From positions 1-58,543 of the IMG/VR virus record IMGVR_UViG_3300032241_002115: 58,543 bases of DNA. One strand, written 5' to 3'. The notes under the pieces are model-generated. The model ran no database searches, was not told the origin of the DNA, and worked only from the letters and a program-made list of their open reading frames with translations. Numbering within the stretch: the stretch's first letter is position 1; every line of letters begins with the position of its first letter. The DNA is from a virus. Positions 2,280 through 47,539 of this stretch are shown piece after piece. A program made the translations under genes and the position numbers.

Positions 2280-2980
2280 CACAGCACCTCTCTTTCTTTC
2301 CGTCTGAGTTCCATCAGCTCTTCCCATCTTTTATAGCTGTACTCTTGAACCTGATACTCGATCTCACATAGCTGTGTGATTATAGCCCCGAGTTGTTCCG
2401 GTATAACATCATGGTTGGTATTGTTGAAACCAAACTTATCGATAGCAACACGTGCAATGTATGTTTGAATCATTTCGATGTTGTCACCGATAGCATCAAG
2501 AGCTGCTGCCAGTGGATCACCTGGAGTACACTCATTGTAGTAGTGATTACCGGATGGGCGCCACTTGCCGCGTGGTTCACCGAGCTTGGTTCCATAGCTG
2601 CTCTTGTCATTCCAGCCACTGTTCAGGGTGTACTCACCGCAGGCACAGCTGGTCATGATATCCTGCTTAGCACGTACAAGCTTGCGGGAGAATGAGATGA
2701 GTTCATCCCAGGCTGGTACAACAGGCAGCAGCTCAAGGTCAACCAGCTCAGTACCCTTAAGAGCAGTGAACAAACCATCTTGCACACAGCGACCACGTTC
2801 ATCAGCCTCACAGTGCTCAGTACCATGTGAGTGCCAGTGCTCTTTGAGGGCACTAACATGCCGATCAATGTCATCCACAGGATGATCTAGCACAGCTGAG
2901 AACTGCTGGAGCACCTGTTGCCAGATGTAGTTGTACTTGGCATTCAGATGCTGTACGTAGGGACGCTGATCGATTCTCAT
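2279..2980 (-). CDS. Hypothetical protein, 233 aa
   Basis: The start MRIDQRPYVQHLNAKYNYIW is chosen because it overlaps the upstream stop codon in the junction GAGGTGCTGTGATGA. The product is largely helical with two Cys-containing patches (HCEADERGRC around residues 55-65 and SCACGEY around 110), which could bind metal. The C-terminal 60 residues are Glu/Arg-rich and probably helical, ending RKEREVL. No family is recognised. It is translationally coupled to both neighbours. Confidence 0.7.
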   Translation of the reverse strand: MRIDQRPYVQHLNAKYNYIWQQVLQQFSAVLDHPVDDIDRHVSALKEHWHSHGTEHCEADERGRCVQDGLFTALKGTELVDLELLPVVPAWDELISFSRKLVRAKQDIMTSCACGEYTLNSGWNDKSSYGTKLGEPRGKWRPSGNHYYNECTPGDPLAAALDAIGDNIEMIQTYIARVAIDKFGFNNTNHDVIPEQLGAIITQLCEIEYQVQEYSYKRWEELMELRRKEREVL

Positions 2981-3465
2981 CACAGCACCTCCATTGGCAC
3001 TCGATGTGTCTCGAACAGGTGAGCAAGGCTGCGGGTTATGCGCTGGTGATTGCACACACGATCAATGCTGGTACCATCACGCAACAGATAGGGCTGGGTA
3101 ACCCACTTGCCCTGATCAACACTCTGATCGATCAATGACCACTGCTCGGTCAACAGATCGTACAGTGGTTCAATGGTCTGCCAGTTGTCGGGAGTCCAGG
3201 CACTGGGCAGACAGGGATCAAGATCAACCCACTGCTTGCGAGTCCAGTCGTTAGAACCACGAGCACTGGTGACCTGCTCCAGCTGGAAGAAACGTGGGCG
3301 GGAACCCCACAAGATCCCCCAGTGGATATGAATACGACCCGCACCGTAGAGCACGGGCTGCTCGGCTTGGAAACGCTGCCAACCATCAGCAGTGTAACCC
3401 TGCCAGCAATCAACCATGAGATCCCACACAGGGATAGTCATGGGTACTACCGGTTGCTTACTCAT
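2980..3465 (-). CDS. Hypothetical protein, 161 aa
   Basis: The start MSKQPVVPMTIPVWDLM is preceded by a perfect GGAGGTG six bases upstream and is preferred to the longer frame. The product is unusually rich in Trp (WDLMVDCWQGYTADGWQRF, then HWGILWGSRPRF). It ends VPMEVL, matching the end of the next protein (REREVL), because the two genes share one junction sequence. It is the first gene of its transcription unit; the region upstream (3466-3651) holds inverted repeats. The function is unknown. Confidence 0.72.
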   Translation of the reverse strand: MSKQPVVPMTIPVWDLMVDCWQGYTADGWQRFQAEQPVLYGAGRIHIHWGILWGSRPRFFQLEQVTSARGSNDWTRKQWVDLDPCLPSAWTPDNWQTIEPLYDLLTEQWSLIDQSVDQGKWVTQPYLLRDGTSIDRVCNHQRITRSLAHLFETHRVPMEVL

Positions 3466-3618: not shown

Positions 3619-3639
3619 CTTGTTTATGTAATAAACAAG
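3619..3639. promoter_or_regulatory. 21-bp inverted repeat, possible operator
   Basis: A perfect 9-bp inverted repeat, CTTGTTTAT-GTA-ATAAACAAG, sits in the spacer between the mini-zinc gene and the downstream minus-strand operon. No T-run follows on either strand, so a protein-binding operator is more likely than a terminator. A nearby GCTAACTTA (3587-3595) recurs at 4421-4429 in the origin-like region. Confidence 0.4.
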
Positions 3640-3651
3640 GACCCGATTAGC

Positions 3652-3804
3652 TTAGGTCATGTCAATCACCTCCTCTGATGTTTCACGTGAAACATTTGTG
3701 CGTACACATGCACACAACCAGCTGGTACAGGGTTCTACATGCCACTCAACAGGGTGGTCACACAGATCACACCAGTTGGCAGATGTTTCACGTGAAACAT
3801 TCAT
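3652..3804 (-). CDS. 50-aa Cys-rich mini-protein with two embedded parS sites
   Basis: The ATG at 3804 overlaps the stop of the upstream 70-aa gene (ATGA). The product begins MNVSRETSANWCDLC and ends NVSRETSEEVIDMT. Four Cys residues or more (C-x2-C near 12-15, then C26, C31, C33) suggest a zinc-binding knuckle. The hexapeptide NVSRET occurs twice because a perfect TGTTTCACGTGAAACA palindrome lies in frame at each end of the gene. This gene may exist mainly to carry centromere sites, or the sites may simply be tolerated by the reading frame. No homologue is recognised. Confidence 0.6.
   Translation of the reverse strand: MNVSRETSANWCDLCDHPVEWHVEPCTSWLCACVRTNVSRETSEEVIDMT
3679..3694. promoter_or_regulatory. 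parS: parS-type ParB site 1
   Basis: TGTTTCACGTGAAACA is an exact 16-bp palindrome identical to the chromosomal parS consensus that host ParB (Spo0J) proteins bind in most bacteria. It lies near the 3' end of the 50-codon gene at 3652-3804 and encodes NVSRET there. Confidence 0.85.
3784..3799. promoter_or_regulatory. parS: parS-type ParB site 2
   Basis: This is a second exact copy of TGTTTCACGTGAAACA, 105 bases from the first. It overlaps codons 2-7 of the 50-codon gene. Clustered parS copies favour ParB spreading on chromosomes and plasmids. Confidence 0.85.
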
Positions 3805-4013
3805 GACTGCACCGGGGTGATGAATGCACCGATCAAGTGACTGGTCAGTTCAACCACGTCCATGTGATGCTCGCGGATACTTCTCCACTGCTTGCAGATT
3901 TCGCAGGTACGGGTATCAGCTTCACACCGTTCCAGTTGTGGTTCGATGATATTCACCACCTGAGCTAGCAGTCTGTCACTGATCTCCAGCAGTGTTGCGA
4001 TGTCTTCTGTCAT
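3801..4013 (-). CDS. Hypothetical protein, 70 aa
   Basis: This small helical protein begins MTEDIATLLEISDRLLAQVV and has a central C-x7-C-x2-C patch (CEADTRTCEIC) and a His-rich bend (REHHMDVVEL). AAAGGA precedes the start by nine bases. Its stop overlaps the start of the mini-zinc gene, so the pair should be co-translated. No family is recognised. The Cys cluster could bind zinc. Confidence 0.65.
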   Translation of the reverse strand: MTEDIATLLEISDRLLAQVVNIIEPQLERCEADTRTCEICKQWRSIREHHMDVVELTSHLIGAFITPVQS

Positions 4014-4025
4014 GGGTTTTTCCTT

Positions 4026-4283
4026 TCACTCGGGTTGGATGGATTCGTACACCGGTTCCCAGCGCATGAGCACAGTTCCTGTGCACAGCATGAGATTCTC
4101 ACTGAGCTTGAACTCCAGGTGCATGTAGCCCTGCTCGTTCAGCACAGTACGCATCTCCAGGTACTTGTACACGGTTGGCATGCCCTGTGTGCTGTGGGTA
4201 ACGGTACTGGCATCAGCATCCACCAGGTACCAGTCACTGTGATCCACGCTCAGGTAGTACCTGTTCCAGGCTTTCACTTGCAT
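4026..4283 (-). CDS. Hypothetical protein, 85 aa
   Basis: This beta-rich small protein begins MQVKAWNRYYLSVDHSDWYL and alternates hydrophobic and polar residues, as expected for a compact beta fold. GAGAGG lies seven bases upstream of the ATG, and the third parS site lies just upstream of that. It is the first gene after the origin-like region. No function is recognised. A competing 26-codon frame starting MFHVKH inside the parS site overlaps it out of frame and is not preferred. Confidence 0.65.
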   Translation of the reverse strand: MQVKAWNRYYLSVDHSDWYLVDADASTVTHSTQGMPTVYKYLEMRTVLNEQGYMHLEFKLSENLMLCTGTVLMRWEPVYESIQPE

Positions 4284-4297
4284 GATATTCCTCTCTA

Positions 4298-4313
4298 TGT
4301 TTCACGTGAAACA
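4298..4313. promoter_or_regulatory. parS: parS-type ParB site 3
   Basis: This is the third exact TGTTTCACGTGAAACA, located in non-coding DNA immediately beside two DnaA boxes. Adjacent parS and DnaA boxes are typical of bacterial chromosome origin regions and unusual in a phage. Confidence 0.85.
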
Positions 4314-4315
4314 TG

Positions 4316-4335
4316 TTGTCCACAAGTTATCCACA
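4316..4335 (+). promoter_or_regulatory. Two tandem DnaA boxes
   Basis: TTGTCCACA (4316-4324) and TTATCCACA (4327-4335) are directly repeated. The second is the universal DnaA consensus, and the first is the form frequent in high-GC actinobacteria. They follow the third parS site with a two-base gap. Confidence 0.7.
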
Positions 4336-10571: not shown

Positions 10572-10907
10572 ATGAACTGGAATCACAGATACGCCAGCGA
10601 AGATGATGATCGTACCACTCGTGGTCATAATTATCATATACAACAGCATGGCCAATCAATTGGTAGAAATGTAGTAGCTCTTCAGAATCTAGAGCCAGGA
10701 CATCCGCTGCATGACCTAGCATCGCTGGCAGAGCAAGCACATGGACAAGCTATCAATGCTCATGGATCAGCAGTAACTGCTCATGATACAGATAACCCTA
10801 GAGCTTTAATATACAGTGCCAGAGCTATAGCACTATCAGAGGCAGCTGACAGATTACAGGACAGCATAGAAATGATGCATCCTGAACACTATATAAAAGT
10901 TAGGTAA
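10572..10907 (+). CDS. Tagged hypothetical protein, 111 aa
   Basis: It begins MNWNHRYASEDDD; this ATG is preferred over one three codons earlier because the tag then starts the protein. Residues about 40-105 are paralogous to the 151-aa protein at 7170-7625 (shared NAH-x6-AH and SARAI motifs). The body is His/Ala-rich and helical (EQAHGQAINAHGSAVTAH). The same domain thus occurs with two different tag variants in this phage. The function is unknown. Confidence 0.75.
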   Translation: MNWNHRYASEDDDRTTRGHNYHIQQHGQSIGRNVVALQNLEPGHPLHDLASLAEQAHGQAINAHGSAVTAHDTDNPRALIYSARAIALSEAADRLQDSIEMMHPEHYIKVR

Positions 10908-11101: not shown

Positions 11102-11502
11102 ACTGGAACTACAGATACGCATCAGATGCTCGTGCCAAGCGAATCATGGATCAACTTCGCAAGGAATATCCCGGTGCTGAGATAATTGATGACGCTGGCA
11201 GCTACTTTGCTCTGACTGAACCAACAAAAGATCACCCAGAGTACGATGGTGCTGTTCAGGTGGTTGTTGGGCCAACTCCGCCACATCATCATGAGCACAC
11301 CAGCCATGAATACCGTGCCCGACAGACTCCGTTCAACCTGCACATGGATGATCAGGTAATCAGAGTTGAACCCGGCCAGACTCATCATGTACCTCCAGGA
11401 ACGGTTCACTATCTGAGCGTTGATCCTGATACTGAGTGCTGGCTGGATGTGATTGACCGCCCTGGTCTGGATGATGACAACCCGGATGCACAAAATGTAT
11501 AA
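11098..11502 (+). CDS. Tagged cupin-like protein, 134 aa
   Basis: The tag MNWNYRYASDARAK is followed by a helical linker (residues about 11-30) that matches the linker of the next protein. Then comes a cupin-type beta-barrel: PPHHHEHTSHEY supplies the first metal motif (His 63-70, Glu 71), and GQTHHVPPGTVH (93-104) matches the second. Cupins bind a divalent metal and often small ligands. The substrate is unknown. Fusion of the tag to an apparently folded enzyme-like domain supports a targeting role for the tag. Confidence 0.7.
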   Translation: MNWNYRYASDARAKRIMDQLRKEYPGAEIIDDAGSYFALTEPTKDHPEYDGAVQVVVGPTPPHHHEHTSHEYRARQTPFNLHMDDQVIRVEPGQTHHVPPGTVHYLSVDPDTECWLDVIDRPGLDDDNPDAQNV

Positions 11503-11923
11503 GAAATGGAAAATACGTTATGCCAGCAATGGCAGCGCAAAAGAACAGGTCATTGCTCAGCTAGAGGATGACTACCCAGAAGACAAGATGCAGTGGATTC
11601 ATGATGCTGATTGGTCCGGTCCACAGACTGTTGATATAAAAGATATTGACAGCAGTAAACGTAAAACCTGGGCAGCCTACCATGAGCCTAAAAAAGTAAA
11701 CAAATGGATGAAACGCATAGAAGATGGGAACAAAAAACCAGTAACCCTGGTTAAAACTCCTAAAAATGATAAGTATATTATTATTGATGGGCATCATCGC
11801 TTCCTGGCCTATGAAAAACTCAAGCAGGACCCAGTGTGCTGGATAGGCAGTGTAGATAAAGAAAGTGGCCCATGGGATACTTTCCACAATGAACAGAATG
11901 CTCGAGAGGCGGCAGACAAATGA
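11495..11923 (+). CDS. Tagged ParB/Srx-like domain protein, 142 aa
   Basis: It begins MYKKWKIRYASNGSAKEQ, a longer variant of the tag, and shares with the cupin protein the linker pattern AK-x6-QL-x3-YP. Residues about 80-115 contain IIIDGHHRFLAYEKL (DGHHR at 98-102), the hallmark of the ParB-N/sulfiredoxin-like nuclease or nucleotidase fold. Phages carry many such domains, and this one lacks any visible DNA-binding helix-turn-helix, so it is unlikely to bind parS. It overlaps both neighbours by a few bases. Confidence 0.7.
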   Translation: MYKKWKIRYASNGSAKEQVIAQLEDDYPEDKMQWIHDADWSGPQTVDIKDIDSSKRKTWAAYHEPKKVNKWMKRIEDGNKKPVTLVKTPKNDKYIIIDGHHRFLAYEKLKQDPVCWIGSVDKESGPWDTFHNEQNAREAADK

Positions 11924-37802: not shown

Positions 37803-38813
37803 ATGAGTATTTCCCCTAATGGCGCTGTAGCGGACCACCTGGCCCCAAGAACAGCCAAGAAGTCGGATGACTACGTATCCGGTATCGTAGAGGCTCAAGA
37901 GCGTCTCGCATCGGCAACTGGTCGTAAGACTGCAACGCGTGAGGAAAAGCAGCGTCGTCTTGCTGGTATACTTGCTGACAAGGACAACTACATGGTCCGT
38001 CTGGGCCAGGGTATGATTGGTCCTATCCAGCTGAAGCTTCGTTATCAGGGTATGACCCGTAACGTACTTCTCGAGGACCCACTGACCCCTGGTGTACCTG
38101 TCATGTACGACGTACTTGACGAGTACGGTCAGGCCTACATCCTGTCGGGTAACGAGGGTGAGGTTCGTGTAACCCCATTCGAAGGTAAGAAGGTTCCGGT
38201 CCGCCTGTTCCGTATTGCCACCTTCCCACAGATCAAGAAGGAAGACCTCTGGTACCTGCGTGTTAACATCGTTGAGTACGCTCAGGACATGAGCAAGCAG
38301 GCCATCATGATGCAGGAAGACGCCCGTCTTATCACTGTTCTTGAAGCCGCTATCAACAACTACGCTGTTGACCCCAACCACACGGTCAGCCCCAACCACG
38401 TAGTCAACGAGCTTTCGGGTTACATCACCCCTGACTCGATGTACGACCTGGTTGCCCTCATCGAGGTCCACCAGTTGGAGGCTAGCCGTCTGCTGTTCAA
38501 CCCCATCGACTACCGTGACCTCTACAAGTGGGACATCAACCAGACCGGTTGGGCCTTCAAGGACCGCGTCGTAGCCGGTGAGCGTATCGTTCAGTTCGGT
38601 GGTTTCCAGGTACAGCGCAGCATCGAGGTCCCCCAGGGCACCGTTTACATGACCCCAAGCCCCGAGTTCCTCGGTGTATTCCCTGTCATGTACAGCCTCG
38701 ACGTTGAAGAGAACCACACCCCTGAGAAGTTCCACAAGGGTTGGGTCATGGACGAGCTCGTCAGCGAGATTGTTCTTAACCCACGTGGCCTCGGCAAGAT
38801 CGTCAAGGCCTAG
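37803..38813 (+). CDS. Major capsid protein, 336 aa
   Basis: A charged N-terminal region (residues about 1-55, ERLASATGRKTATREEKQRR) precedes the shell domain, like an HK97 delta domain that may be removed; R-L-A-S near residue 37 is a candidate cut site. The body has the mixed alpha/beta pattern of an HK97-fold protein, and the C-terminus (LVSEIVLNPRGLGKIVKA) resembles other myovirus capsids. The codon choice is the most GC-rich of the region, as expected for the most abundant protein. The gene is followed by a terminator hairpin. Confidence 0.8.
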   Translation: MSISPNGAVADHLAPRTAKKSDDYVSGIVEAQERLASATGRKTATREEKQRRLAGILADKDNYMVRLGQGMIGPIQLKLRYQGMTRNVLLEDPLTPGVPVMYDVLDEYGQAYILSGNEGEVRVTPFEGKKVPVRLFRIATFPQIKKEDLWYLRVNIVEYAQDMSKQAIMMQEDARLITVLEAAINNYAVDPNHTVSPNHVVNELSGYITPDSMYDLVALIEVHQLEASRLLFNPIDYRDLYKWDINQTGWAFKDRVVAGERIVQFGGFQVQRSIEVPQGTVYMTPSPEFLGVFPVMYSLDVEENHTPEKFHKGWVMDELVSEIVLNPRGLGKIVKA

Positions 38814-42455: not shown

Positions 42456-45400
42456 ATGGCATTAATAATACCTGAATCACAGAGTTCACCAACATGGCCA
42501 GCTCAGGCTGTTCTTGATAATACTGATCTTAACTCACTATATCTGCTCGGCCAGGCGACTGGTGTTATCAGTGGATTTGTACTATCTGGCAGCCTTAGCA
42601 ACCCTAGCAGCACAATTATTAGTGGCAACATAACATCTGGAACTTATACTATTAGTGGTACATATACTAGTGTATCATCATCTAATTTCATAACATTGCC
42701 TGCTAGCACAGGTGACCGAAGAGATATAGTAGTGGCAAGTGGTACAACTATATCAGTAATAAAAGGCAATGCCATCACTATCGCTGGCTGGAATAACTCT
42801 AGCCTTGTAGATCCTCCTGTCAAGCCAGCTGTACCATCAGGGTGCATGCTTATTGCTGAGGTATACATACCTGGTACTTCAGTATTTACTGCACTAGATA
42901 ATAGTTGGTATATAGACAAAACAGCTATATTTGTTCCAATTCCTGGCCCGCAAGGTGTCCAGGGCAACCAAGGAGTACAGGGCAACCAAGGAGTACAAGG
43001 CAACCAAGGATCTCTTGGTTCACAGGGAACACAGGGATACCAAGGGCTATCCGGCACTCAAGGATCGCAAGGCGCTAATGGATTACAAGGCAATCAAGGC
43101 CAACAGGGTTTGCAGGGATATCAGGGTTTGCAGGGATATCAGGGCAATCAAGGCCAACAGGGTTTGCAGGGATATCAGGGCAATCAGGGTTTACAAGGGT
43201 ACCAGGGCTTACAAGGTGCTATAGGTCTCCAAGGCTATCAAGGCTATCAAGGTCCACAAGGCTCGCAAGGTTACCAAGGCAACCAGGGATATCAAGGGTA
43301 TCAATCCAGTGTGCAAGGACCACAAGGTTACCAAGGCTATCAAGGATTTTTGGGAGCTCAGGGTCTACAGGGCTTCCAAGGAGTAGTAACGGGTAGTACT
43401 CCGCCTAGTGATGTAGGTATCCTATTTTTAGACACTACTGCTAGTGGCTATGGCACACAGGGGCCACAAGGTTTTCAGGGCTATCAGGGATTTCAAGGTA
43501 GTCAGGGCTACCAATCAGGTGTACAGGGATATCAGGGTTACCAAGGCTACCAGGGCAATCAAGGTTTCCAAGGTGTCATAGGTAATACTGGAGCACAAGG
43601 CTATCAAGGCTACCAAGGCTACCAAGGAAACCAAGGTTTCCAGGGTTATCAAGGATCACAAGGTTTCCAAGGTTTCCAAGGAACTGTACAGATAGCTAAC
43701 ACTACCGTTACATCTGGAACTACTAACTACATAGCATCTTCTTCCGATAATGGCAAGATGATATTGATTTCTGGTGCGAGCCCAAACTTAATATTACCAT
43801 CAGGAGGATTGCCAGCTCCTTGGTTTGCCACATATGTTAATATTGGTACTGGCCAAATGATAGTTGGAAAATCTGGTACAGATTCAACTACTCAACTTAA
43901 TAGATCATCTAGTTCATACTTTCCAACCGCTGCTCAACCATTTTTTGTATGGTCAGACGGTACACAGTATTTTTGTAACCCCGGTCTAACTGCTCAAGCA
44001 TACACTTTTGCATTAGCTGGACCAAACATAACACTTACGGGGACCAGTGGATCACTCCCCACCAACAGTAAAGTGGTTTACAACGGTAATGCAAACGCAA
44101 ACTTTACTATTCCCTATAGTACAAATCAAAATACCGGACAGCCACAATACCTTACAAACGCTTCTAACTATAGTATTACCATTGCTCCAGTATCAGGAAC
44201 TCTATATGTTGGTACAAATGCAATTAGCGGTTCATCGTCGTACACTCTAGGCCCTGGCACTTCAATGATGTATAGTGCCACTAGCAATACTACCCTTTAC
44301 GCAATTGATATTGGAGGCACTTCTCAAGTAGCTGGCCCCGTACTTACAGTAACTGGTACGGCATATACTGCACAGACTTCTGACAATGGTAGAACTATAC
44401 AATTTACCAATACTGGTACATCTAGTTATACCCTACCTTCAGGTGGTATGACACCACCATGGTTTGTAACTGCAGTAGCAATTAGTGGTAATGCACAGTT
44501 CTATACTGCTCCAGCAAGTGGTGCAACCCTTAATGGGTTATCTAACTCTACTCAATTTGGCCTATACTCTACTGTTGGTAAACCAATGTTTATCTGGTCA
44601 GATGGCTCCAATTACTATGCCAATCTTGGTATGAGTCAAAATGCCTATGCCAAAGCCTATAATGAATCAACAACACAGATTTTTACTGGGTCTAGTGGGC
44701 AAATGAACTTCGGTTCTAGAGTGGTCTATAGTGGTACCGGTAATAGTACAATTACACTACCACAATATGGTGGTAACTTTCCACTAGCAAATACACTTAT
44801 AAATGTTTCAGCTACTGGCGTAGTCACCATAGGCATTAACCCAAGCCAGACACTTTATGCCGGTACAGCTTCTTATGTTAGTGGTACTGGCCCTGTTTTT
44901 ACAGTACCACCTGGTGGATCTTACAACTTCCAAAGTCAAGCAAGTAACACTATCTATGCTTATGCTGCCAGCCCTCAGACAATAACCGGTGACCTAACTG
45001 TTAACTCTATTGGAGCAGCAACTGTTGTAAGTTCAAGTGGTAACTTTACAGTTGGCAGTGGACTAACCGTTAGCGGTACTAGTACTCATATTGGGGCAGC
45101 AACATTTAGCGGAACAGTGAGTATTAGTGGTAATGCTGTGCTGACTAGTGGATATGGTGCAGGTGGAGACCTAACTGGAACTTACCCCAGTCCGACTCTC
45201 GCTGCAGCTGGCACTTCAGGTACTTATGGTAGTGCATCCCTAGTTCCAATTATTACTACAGATACAAAGGGTCGCGTAACCTCTGTTAGTACTGCCGCAC
45301 CACTAGATGCCACCAAGTTGCCAACATCTGGTGGCACCATAAATGGTAACCTAGTAGTTGCTAGTGGTCTAACAGTTAGTGGTACCAGCACTTTAAACAC

Positions 45401-46424
45401 TACTATAGTTACTGGAACTTTAACAGCTAGTGGGACAACTGTACTTCCAAATACCACAGTTACGGGTTCATTAACTGTATCGGGAGCCACAACTGTTAGT
45501 GGTTTTACTAATACTGGTAATGAAACAATATCTGGCACAATATCTGCACCTAACTCATCACTTAGTAACGTACAGATATTTACTGTAACTGGAACCAACA
45601 CCTGGACAAAGCCAACTAACTTTACTCCTACCAACCTTAGAGTTATTTGTGTAGGTGGAGGCGGTGGTGGAGGGAGTGGTGCAAAAGCAGGTAGCAATGC
45701 TGGAGGCGGGGGCGGAGGCGGCAGCGCTGCTGTAGCAGAAGCATCATTTAGTTACGCTAGCGATTTGGGTAGCCCTAGCTCTATAACACTTACCGTTGGT
45801 AGTGGTGGATCTGGTGGTGCCGCAGTATCAGCTTCCGGAACTCAGGGGAATAATGGTGGAAATGGTGGCGCTAGCTATTTTGGTAGTGCTACTGCTAGCG
45901 GATCTTACCTGTATGCAGCACCTGGGTTAGGTGGATCTGGTGGAGCAACTACTGGAGCAGGCGGTGGTGGTAACTATGGCTCTGGTCAATGGATAGGTGC
46001 CTATGGAGGTACTGGTGGTACTGGTACTGGTGGTACTGGTACTGGTTATACTGGAAATAATGGAACATACAACGGCGGCGGCGGCGGTGGTGGTGGCAAT
46101 GGCAATGGTGGCGCTGGTGGGATACCAATCATACAGTCACAGCTAACTCCAGCTGCTGGTGATTCTAATACTGGTGGCGGTGGCGTTGGTGGAGCAGGGC
46201 AAGCATCTACTGGATCGTCAACTTATGGCTACATAACCGGTGGTGGCGGTGGTGGAAGAGGAGTTGGAGGTGGGTACCTACCTGGTTCTGGTGGAAAAGG
46301 CGGTATAGGGTCTGGCGGTGGCGGTGGTGGTGCGCAGACTGGTTCTCAAAGCTCTGGTTCAGGATCTAACTCTGGAACTGGTGGGAATGGCGGTAATGGA
46401 ATAGTGATAGTGATAGCGACATGA
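42456..46424 (+). CDS. Giant collagen-like, glycine-rich tail fibre, 1322 aa
   Basis: Domain order: an attachment domain (1-163); collagen-like Gly-x-Gln repeats (164-311 and 335-409, with units such as GYQGYQGNQG); two tandem beta domains of about 210 residues (410-830) sharing SDNG-x13-LPSGG-x3-PWF and WSDG-x2-Y; a fibre domain with GDLTGTYPSPTLAAAG and TDTKGRVTS (about 905-960); beta helices; then a glycine-rich tip (about 1060-1322) with GGGG runs like T2 gp38-type adhesins. It probably recognises the host surface. The gene overlaps the second collagen-like gene by four bases. Confidence 0.85.
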   Translation: MALIIPESQSSPTWPAQAVLDNTDLNSLYLLGQATGVISGFVLSGSLSNPSSTIISGNITSGTYTISGTYTSVSSSNFITLPASTGDRRDIVVASGTTISVIKGNAITIAGWNNSSLVDPPVKPAVPSGCMLIAEVYIPGTSVFTALDNSWYIDKTAIFVPIPGPQGVQGNQGVQGNQGVQGNQGSLGSQGTQGYQGLSGTQGSQGANGLQGNQGQQGLQGYQGLQGYQGNQGQQGLQGYQGNQGLQGYQGLQGAIGLQGYQGYQGPQGSQGYQGNQGYQGYQSSVQGPQGYQGYQGFLGAQGLQGFQGVVTGSTPPSDVGILFLDTTASGYGTQGPQGFQGYQGFQGSQGYQSGVQGYQGYQGYQGNQGFQGVIGNTGAQGYQGYQGYQGNQGFQGYQGSQGFQGFQGTVQIANTTVTSGTTNYIASSSDNGKMILISGASPNLILPSGGLPAPWFATYVNIGTGQMIVGKSGTDSTTQLNRSSSSYFPTAAQPFFVWSDGTQYFCNPGLTAQAYTFALAGPNITLTGTSGSLPTNSKVVYNGNANANFTIPYSTNQNTGQPQYLTNASNYSITIAPVSGTLYVGTNAISGSSSYTLGPGTSMMYSATSNTTLYAIDIGGTSQVAGPVLTVTGTAYTAQTSDNGRTIQFTNTGTSSYTLPSGGMTPPWFVTAVAISGNAQFYTAPASGATLNGLSNSTQFGLYSTVGKPMFIWSDGSNYYANLGMSQNAYAKAYNESTTQIFTGSSGQMNFGSRVVYSGTGNSTITLPQYGGNFPLANTLINVSATGVVTIGINPSQTLYAGTASYVSGTGPVFTVPPGGSYNFQSQASNTIYAYAASPQTITGDLTVNSIGAATVVSSSGNFTVGSGLTVSGTSTHIGAATFSGTVSISGNAVLTSGYGAGGDLTGTYPSPTLAAAGTSGTYGSASLVPIITTDTKGRVTSVSTAAPLDATKLPTSGGTINGNLVVASGLTVSGTSTLNTTIVTGTLTASGTTVLPNTTVTGSLTVSGATTVSGFTNTGNETISGTISAPNSSLSNVQIFTVTGTNTWTKPTNFTPTNLRVICVGGGGGGGSGAKAGSNAGGGGGGGSAAVAEASFSYASDLGSPSSITLTVGSGGSGGAAVSASGTQGNNGGNGGASYFGSATASGSYLYAAPGLGGSGGATTGAGGGGNYGSGQWIGAYGGTGGTGTGGTGTGYTGNNGTYNGGGGGGGGNGNGGAGGIPIIQSQLTPAAGDSNTGGGGVGGAGQASTGSSTYGYITGGGGGGRGVGGGYLPGSGGKGGIGSGGGGGGAQTGSQSSGSGSNSGTGGNGGNGIVIVIAT
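42945..43682 (+). repeat. Collagen-like coding repeat tract
   Basis: Short 9- and 18-base units encoding Gly-x-Gln (for example GGATATCAG and GGCAACCAA) are repeated with many exact duplicates, interrupted near 43390-43455. The tract is a likely site of recombination, including with the related tract at 46850-47257. Confidence 0.85.
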
Positions 46425-47539
46425 CACAACTCAAATACTTTCAACCCACAGGAAATAGTCCTTTTACTGTGCTATCGGTTAGTGGAAATACAGTTACTAT
46501 CGCCACGGTAAATACTAGCACTATAACTGCTGGCATGTCTGTGGCTAACACTGGACTAGGTATCAATACTACCGTCAATTCCATAGTAGATACTAGTCGA
46601 TTTACTGTAGCCAACTCTACGGGTATAACCAACGGTACAGTTCTCAACATCGGTACTTGGGTCAGTGCTGTAGTGGGAGCCCAGGGTTATCAAGGCGCTG
46701 CTGGTAGCCCCGGTGGAGCTCAAGGTGCCCAGGGAAATCAGGGCGGACTATCAATATTAGGGACTTCTACTCTAGCTCCAGGCAGCAATGCCACTGTAGT
46801 AGATAGTGGCACAGCCGGTAACTCTTTACTCTACTTTGGCATCCCAAGAGGATACCAAGGTTACCAGGGGTACCAGGGGAACCAGGGTTATCAGAGTAGT
46901 GTTCAAGGACCACAAGGGTTCCAGGGTTACCAGGGAGCACAGGGCAATCAAGGCTACCAGAGTAGTATTCAAGGTCCCCAAGGATATCAGGGTAGTCAAG
47001 GTTACCAAGGTCCCCAGGGCAACCAAGGAATACAAGGCAGTCAGGGTCTACAAGGAACACAAGGATACCAAGGCTATCAGGGTACTCAAGGCTACCAAGG
47101 AGTTCAGGGGTATCAGGGGCTGCAAGGAGCACAAGGATACCAAGGCAATCAAGGTAACCAAGGGTATCAATCAGGAGTGCAAGGATACCAGGGTTTTCAA
47201 GGTACACAAGGTTATCAAGGATCCCAGGGGACTCAAGGCTTTCAAGGCACGCAAGGTGGTATAGTACCAGCGACCAGTGCTAATAGCCCAGCAGCTAGTG
47301 CAACAGTTGGAACATCATCATCTGTTATATTGAATTCCAACGCAGCTAGAAAACAATTCTGGGTTACCAATACTTCAACAACAAGCATAGTTTATCTAGC
47401 ACTATCTAATAGCGGGGCTACACTAAATTCTGGAATCGCTCTTTACCCAGGACAACAATTTAGTACGATATTCTATTCTGGTGATGTATCCGCTATCAGT
47501 ACAGCAAGCGATACAATAGTAGCAATAACGGAGATCTAA
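46421..47539 (+). CDS. Collagen-like tail fibre protein, 372 aa
   Basis: It has an N-terminal beta domain (1-85), a short Gly-x-x tract (86-108), a second beta patch, then a Gly-x-Gln collagen-like tract (144-279) almost devoid of proline, and a C-terminal domain of about 80 residues (RKQFWVTNTSTTSIVYLALS). That last domain resembles the free 96-aa protein encoded next and a part of the 492-aa protein. The collagen tract would form a trimeric rod presenting the terminal domain. It shares tract segments with the 1322-aa fibre (QSSVQGPQG). Confidence 0.82.
   Translation: MTQLKYFQPTGNSPFTVLSVSGNTVTIATVNTSTITAGMSVANTGLGINTTVNSIVDTSRFTVANSTGITNGTVLNIGTWVSAVVGAQGYQGAAGSPGGAQGAQGNQGGLSILGTSTLAPGSNATVVDSGTAGNSLLYFGIPRGYQGYQGYQGNQGYQSSVQGPQGFQGYQGAQGNQGYQSSIQGPQGYQGSQGYQGPQGNQGIQGSQGLQGTQGYQGYQGTQGYQGVQGYQGLQGAQGYQGNQGNQGYQSGVQGYQGFQGTQGYQGSQGTQGFQGTQGGIVPATSANSPAASATVGTSSSVILNSNAARKQFWVTNTSTTSIVYLALSNSGATLNSGIALYPGQQFSTIFYSGDVSAISTASDTIVAITEI
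46850..47257 (+). repeat. Second collagen-like coding repeat tract
   Basis: Tandem Gly-x-Gln codons in the 372-aa fibre gene, built from the same short units as the tract at 42945-43682. The two tracts lie about 3.2 kb apart in the same orientation, so exchange could delete the intervening sequence. Confidence 0.85.

Follow-up and report, generated by a model that had tools for sequence, protein, structure and literature searches.

Three parS sites at a small-gene locus

The window, a 58,543-nt stretch of viral DNA analysed here at its full length, carries three exact copies of the 16-bp palindrome TGTTTCACGTGAAACA, at positions 3679–3694, 3784–3799 and 4298–4313. The palindrome matches the Bacillus-type consensus TGTTNCACGTGAAACA, which is the chromosomal parS of bacteria and the target of Spo0J/ParB, and the clustering of three copies in 635 bp is likewise characteristic of chromosomal-type parS. 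None would be expected there by chance, as the shuffle mean is 0.30 and three sites were reached in 0 of 100 shuffles. A scan of all 58.5 kb yielded no fourth site, even when up to three mismatches were allowed, and the pattern GTTTCNNNGAAAC, which has another spacing, does not match the sites.

Two of the sites fall within a 50-codon, Cys-rich open reading frame (ORF) on the minus strand (3652–3804), which reads MNVSRET...NVSRETSEEVIDMT and whose translation, MNVSRETSANWCDLCDHPVEWHVEPCTSWLCACVRTNVSRETSEEVIDMT, includes five Cys and two His residues. The site at 3784–3799 occupies the 5′ end of the ORF, immediately past the start codon. The site at 3679–3694 occupies the 3′ end, where it precedes an AGGAGG sequence and a vestigial ATG-ACC-TAA. 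Both are read in frame as NVSRET, at residues 2–7 and 37–42, with the second copy 8 residues short of the C terminus. An earlier reading made without database searches (the sequence-only reading) had described this arrangement of in-frame palindromes encoding one hexapeptide near both ends of the ORF, and the sites are indeed exact. It was also right that the start overlaps the previous stop: the ATG (3804–3802) shares the sequence ATGA with the TGA (3803–3801) of a preceding 70-aa ORF (3801–4013, minus strand).

The third site, which was missing from the sequence-only reading, is non-coding. It lies upstream of the ribosome-binding site of an 85-aa gene (4026–4283, minus strand) and 2 nt from a DnaA-box-like doublet (4316–4335, plus strand). 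After the Cys-rich ORF comes the conserved inverted repeat CTTGTTTAT-TAC-ATAAACAAG (3619–3639), which marks the homologous slot in two related viral contigs, G001 (IMGVR 3300006119_000008, 94 kb) and G002 (52.7 kb). A neighbouring gene at 2980–3465 has relatives in G001 only among viral contigs, and none in annotated phages.

The major capsid protein (37803–38813) shares 63.5–64.4% identity with those of Myrna and other cluster C (Ceeclamvirinae) mycobacteriophages, and capsid proteins 94–99% identical to that of the window are encoded by many contigs in IMG/VR, the longest of which is 133 kb. The virus comes from freshwater and, judged by these matches, is a large Bxz1-like actinobacteriophage. 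The 58.5-kb record is probably a fragment of its genome. Myrna itself lacks parS even when two mismatches are allowed, in contrast to the three exact sites of the window, and a megablast comparison of the first 12 kb of the window with annotated phages returned no match. Elsewhere in the window, two large predicted proteins (42456–46424 and 46421–47539) contain collagen-like QGYQG repeats and are probably tail fibres. Otherwise differing plus-strand genes at 10572, 10913, 11098, 11471 and 26332 begin alike, with the N-terminal motif MNWNxRYAS/G (or variants ending in FNSKYAS or KIRYAS), possibly a targeting or processing signal.

A conserved Cys/His core

Because parS is palindromic and the two in-gene sites are spaced by 105 nt, a multiple of three, an open frame across them is by itself weak evidence of a gene. 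Indeed, the same DNA is open in two plus-strand frames, 3659–3820 (with DVSRET twice) and 3678–3806 (with FHVKH twice). These additional frames, together with the shortness of the ORF, would fit a chance open frame running untranslated across a parS-bearing intergenic block. We nevertheless consider this very improbable, given the overlap of its start with the upstream ORF and the properties of the region between the sites.

This region (3706–3780, minus strand) carries the arrangement CxxCxHx4Hx3Cx4CxC and matches the phrog_1311 profile of small phage proteins of unknown function, although the match is marginal (E = 4.1e-4 at the genome level and 0.003 for the single protein). The likeness is confined to the Cys/His core and does not extend to the parS-bearing ends. 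The G001 counterpart of the ORF is 91% identical over residues 2–45, and its core, from W11 to T36, differs from that of the window by four synonymous changes and one conservative non-synonymous change. G001 also encodes a paralogue, in which a second copy of the domain forms the C terminus of a 187-aa gene. The paralogous core differs synonymously at eight codons and non-synonymously at seven, with no loss of any of the five Cys or two His residues. All three family members match phrog_1311 weakly.

Since the Cys/His residues are kept and change is mostly synonymous in both the relative and the paralogue, the core is, by codon comparison, a genuine protein domain and the ORF a real small gene. 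The core itself is a probable metal-binding domain of a small metal-binding protein. This conservation rests on three sequences, because G001 is the only source of homologues outside the window: a profile search of viral contigs with the Cys/His core matched G001 alone, and tblastn searches of phages with the ORF and the paralogous core gave chance-level matches only. Structure prediction for the small protein gave no usable model (mean pLDDT of 52), and no solved structure matches it.

Palindromes conserved as DNA

All three parS positions of the window are kept in G001, which has four sites in about 450 bp. In contrast to the core, the 10 VSRET codons show no changes at all between the window and G001. 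The sequence-only reading had proposed comparing conservation of the core at the protein level with that of the palindromes at the DNA level, and this is the pattern observed: on codon-level evidence, the core is conserved as protein and the palindromes as DNA.

At the positions that correspond to the two NVSRET copies, the domain of the paralogue has VPPET and LPVQT. Length and frame are unaltered, and the VPPET position retains the right half-site TGAAACA. Thus, the Cys-rich domain does not need NVSRET. Because the paralogous domain has no parS, sites appear to have been gained or lost at the domain ends by substitution, in either direction.

These observations bear on the two alternatives offered by the sequence-only reading, that the gene was shaped by evolution to carry centromere sites or that the peptide repeat has a function of its own. 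The first is borne out by the protein-level conservation of the core, the DNA-level conservation of the palindromes and the existence of the same domain without parS. The second, in which NVSRET would serve for example as a modification or binding motif, could draw on its in-frame occurrence at both ORF ends in three genomes and with two different cores. We regard it as hardly credible, however: the paralogous domain dispenses with NVSRET at equal length, the VSRET codons are invariant, one of the three parS sites in the window is non-coding, and unrelated viral genes read the same wherever parS falls in coding DNA.

VSRET is the usual coding form of parS

With the codon usage of the window, the chance of encoding VSRET in exactly these codons is 0.0036 per copy. 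The general reading of parS in coding DNA was assessed with 119 viral contigs that carry an exact parS, where sites more than 12 codons past an ORF start were counted as internal. Internal sites are read as VSRET rather than FHVK by 45 to 5 when ORFs from 100 aa upwards are counted, and by 31 to 1 when the minimum is set to 200 aa, whereas sites at ORF starts in these contigs mostly read MFHVK. Among annotated phages, DVSRET is what the coding parS sites spell in each of Kelcole gp86, NoodlelyBoi gp68, Pointis gp24 (a capsid maturation protease) and Emotion gp74. The 31:1 ratio in long ORFs indicates that NVSRET is a general coding form of parS, and we conclude from these reading frames that it is a tolerated translation of the site within coding DNA. 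It is therefore unsurprising that one gene should carry two in-frame copies, and a peptide function is not needed to account for them.

In a scan of viral contigs that was limited to one exact pattern, parS fused to the ATG with sites at both ORF ends came up again for G002 and for one ORF of 16 aa alone. Related arrangements were also seen in other viral contigs. Paired VSRET-frame sites 90 nt apart lie in one conserved reading frame in L007 (10445–10550), L008 (12907–13012) and L025 (13118–13223). Ten marine viral contigs have in common a 36–37-aa gene, MNVSRET[LS]KKK(K)PKGKLV.NRFSKILAPGKKR.TRI, in which parS is fused to the start codon, and at least six marine contigs share a conserved block of mostly short ORFs with ATGAATGTTTCACGTGAAACA.

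Sporadic distribution among relatives

Exact parS sites occur in only three of 50 close relatives, and sites with at most one mismatch in four (G001, G002, G038 and G020), so the trait is dispensable. In the homologous slot, where the downstream in-gene site of the window is found in the same place, G002 has a different 77-aa ORF that lacks the Cys core, opens with MNVSRET and closes with NVSRETSEPAD, with the parS sites 195 nt apart. G038 carries two intact sites 36 nt apart, outside any ORF and in a different intergenic place, and G020 has a degenerate pair, apparently in the corresponding region. The presence of parS is thus sporadic and tied to no single gene. The sequence-only reading had looked ahead to relatives with a frameshifted ORF and intact parS; none was found, yet sites occur without the ORF in G038 and with a different core in G002.

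The contrast between G002 and the window raises the possibility that the in-gene sites serve as short stretches of homology bounding a cassette that can be swapped, with small ORF cores exchanged between parS ends. Window and G001 on the one hand and G002 on the other have different cores but the same 3′ end module and inverted repeat, and G001 and G002 have ATGAATGTTTCACGTGAAACAATTGA in common at their 5′ ends. Only three genomes are involved, however, and the common ends are short. Moreover, the G002 core has no relative in IMG/VR besides itself, which means that exchange between lineages is not directly visible, and we judge this explanation unlikely. A similarity between the G002 core and the preceding ORF of the window (3801–4013), which is absent from G001, was set aside as weak, as 51 of 2,000 shuffles were equally good. 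The 85-aa gene at 4026–4283 is nearly identical in G001.

Host-type parS without a detected ParB

The HTH_ParB domain (PF17762) was found neither in the window nor in 12 relatives and 11 annotated phages, with the window and the parS-bearing contigs among its relatives represented by fragments; the same search detected the domain in 9 of 14 cellular genomes. A search with PF02195 for a phage ParABS system likewise gave no match above the cut-off in these fragmentary contigs. Given that these genomes are incomplete, a phage ParB could sit in the missing DNA. The window also encodes a ParB/Srx-like protein (11501–11923, plus strand) that matches ParBc_2 just under the cut-off (E = 1.3e-4) and has no recognised HTH.

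The window sites share with bacterial chromosomal parS the exact 16-bp palindrome, the clustering of copies and a position, for one copy, beside a DnaA-box-like sequence. They differ in being on a phage, in having no adjacent parA or parB and in that two copies are intragenic. Of the 11 annotated phages searched for HTH_ParB, 10 carry parS, phi29 among these. Host-type parS without detectable ParB recurs in Arthrobacter, Microbacterium, Gordonia, Rhodococcus, Lactobacillus and Bacillus phages, virulent and other. Three large phages, Lactobacillus phage Bromius, Bacillus phage vB_BcoS-136 and Arthrobacter phage Racecar, carry two to four exact host-type sites each and gave no HTH_ParB match. 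Apart from work on phi29, no paper on phage-borne host-type parS without ParB was found in the literature searched.

phi29 has four copies of TGTTCCACGTGAAACA, one base off the sequence in the window, and no HTH_ParB. According to a report by Meijer et al. in 2005, the trapping of phi29 DNA in spores is aided by host Spo0J. The window resembles phi29 in its pattern of a virulent phage with host-type parS and no detected ParB, as far as a fragment can tell. It differs in phage family and host, in having the exact T-form consensus and in placing two in-frame sites in one small gene. Furthermore, the phi29 link is to sporulation, and the host of the window virus has no known sporulation. Another actinobacteriophage system with centromere-like sites is the parABS of mycobacteriophages RedRock and Miko, in which RedRock encodes ParA and ParB and the parS loci consist of eight 8-bp direct repeats (PMC7157519). 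In contrast to such divergent, repeat-type parS of RedRock, P1 and N15, the window sites have the host-type consensus.

A DnaA-box-like doublet beside the third site

The doublet 2 nt from the third parS, TTGTCCACA-AG-TTATCCACA (TTGTCCACAAGTTATCCACA), is in the same place in G001, as is the site itself. It was found in none of 25 other relatives and has no second copy in the window, where a search for TTRTCCACA arrays returned one doublet; its chance of occurring in 58 kb is about 1e-5, an estimate that assumes uniform composition. It may be an origin element or a regulatory coincidence. The doublet and the three or four parS sites might form a miniature imitation of a host origin, such that host DnaA and ParB would treat the genome as origin-proximal, while the two in-frame sites would be the ends of an exchangeable cassette and protected by coding sequence. 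We consider this model unlikely. Across viral contigs, 8 of 208 parS sites lie near a DnaA box against about 3.5 expected, at five loci, and the general link is weak. No parS adjoining tandem DnaA boxes was seen in the bacterial genomes examined. In 21 bacterial genomes, no dnaA, dnaN or rpmH was recognised around the same 22-mer by a rough and perhaps insensitive motif scan in which the DnaA motif matched nowhere.

The position of the third site, between the doublet and a ribosome-binding site, could instead indicate that the parS sites are host-ParB-dependent operators, with spreading ParB silencing or timing the leftward operon of small genes and positioning being secondary. Start regions contain or adjoin two of the sites, and ParB is reported to reduce transcription around parS in certain bacteria (PMC7022226). 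Against this, the promoter-like match over the third site is weak (9 of 12 positions, with two such matches in the region versus 1.2 in shuffles), and the G038 pair sits elsewhere, in an intergenic place. An operator role is somewhat improbable as a rival to the reading favoured below, but both it and the exchange of cores might operate in addition.

Proposed recruitment of host ParB

The explanation that we favour, with reasonable confidence, is that this virulent-type actinobacteriophage, in which no ParB was detected, carries host-type parS sites that recruit the ParB of its host, and that two of them are embedded in a small, real gene. Substitutions would have placed the in-gene sites within the flexible ends of the Cys-rich gene. 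After injection, the ParB CTPase clamp of the host would most probably be loaded at the sites, and loaded ParB could then spread along the phage DNA and tie it to the host origin, pole and condensin machinery. Such loading could help to position the phage DNA, or to carry it along in cells that grow slowly or lie dormant. Both the binding of host ParB and any benefit to the phage are inferred.

The strict VSRET frame rule offers a simple way to recognize parS in coding DNA, and it cautions against taking NVSRET for a protein motif. If host ParB does load on phage genomes, these sites would connect chromosome segregation directly with infection by phages.
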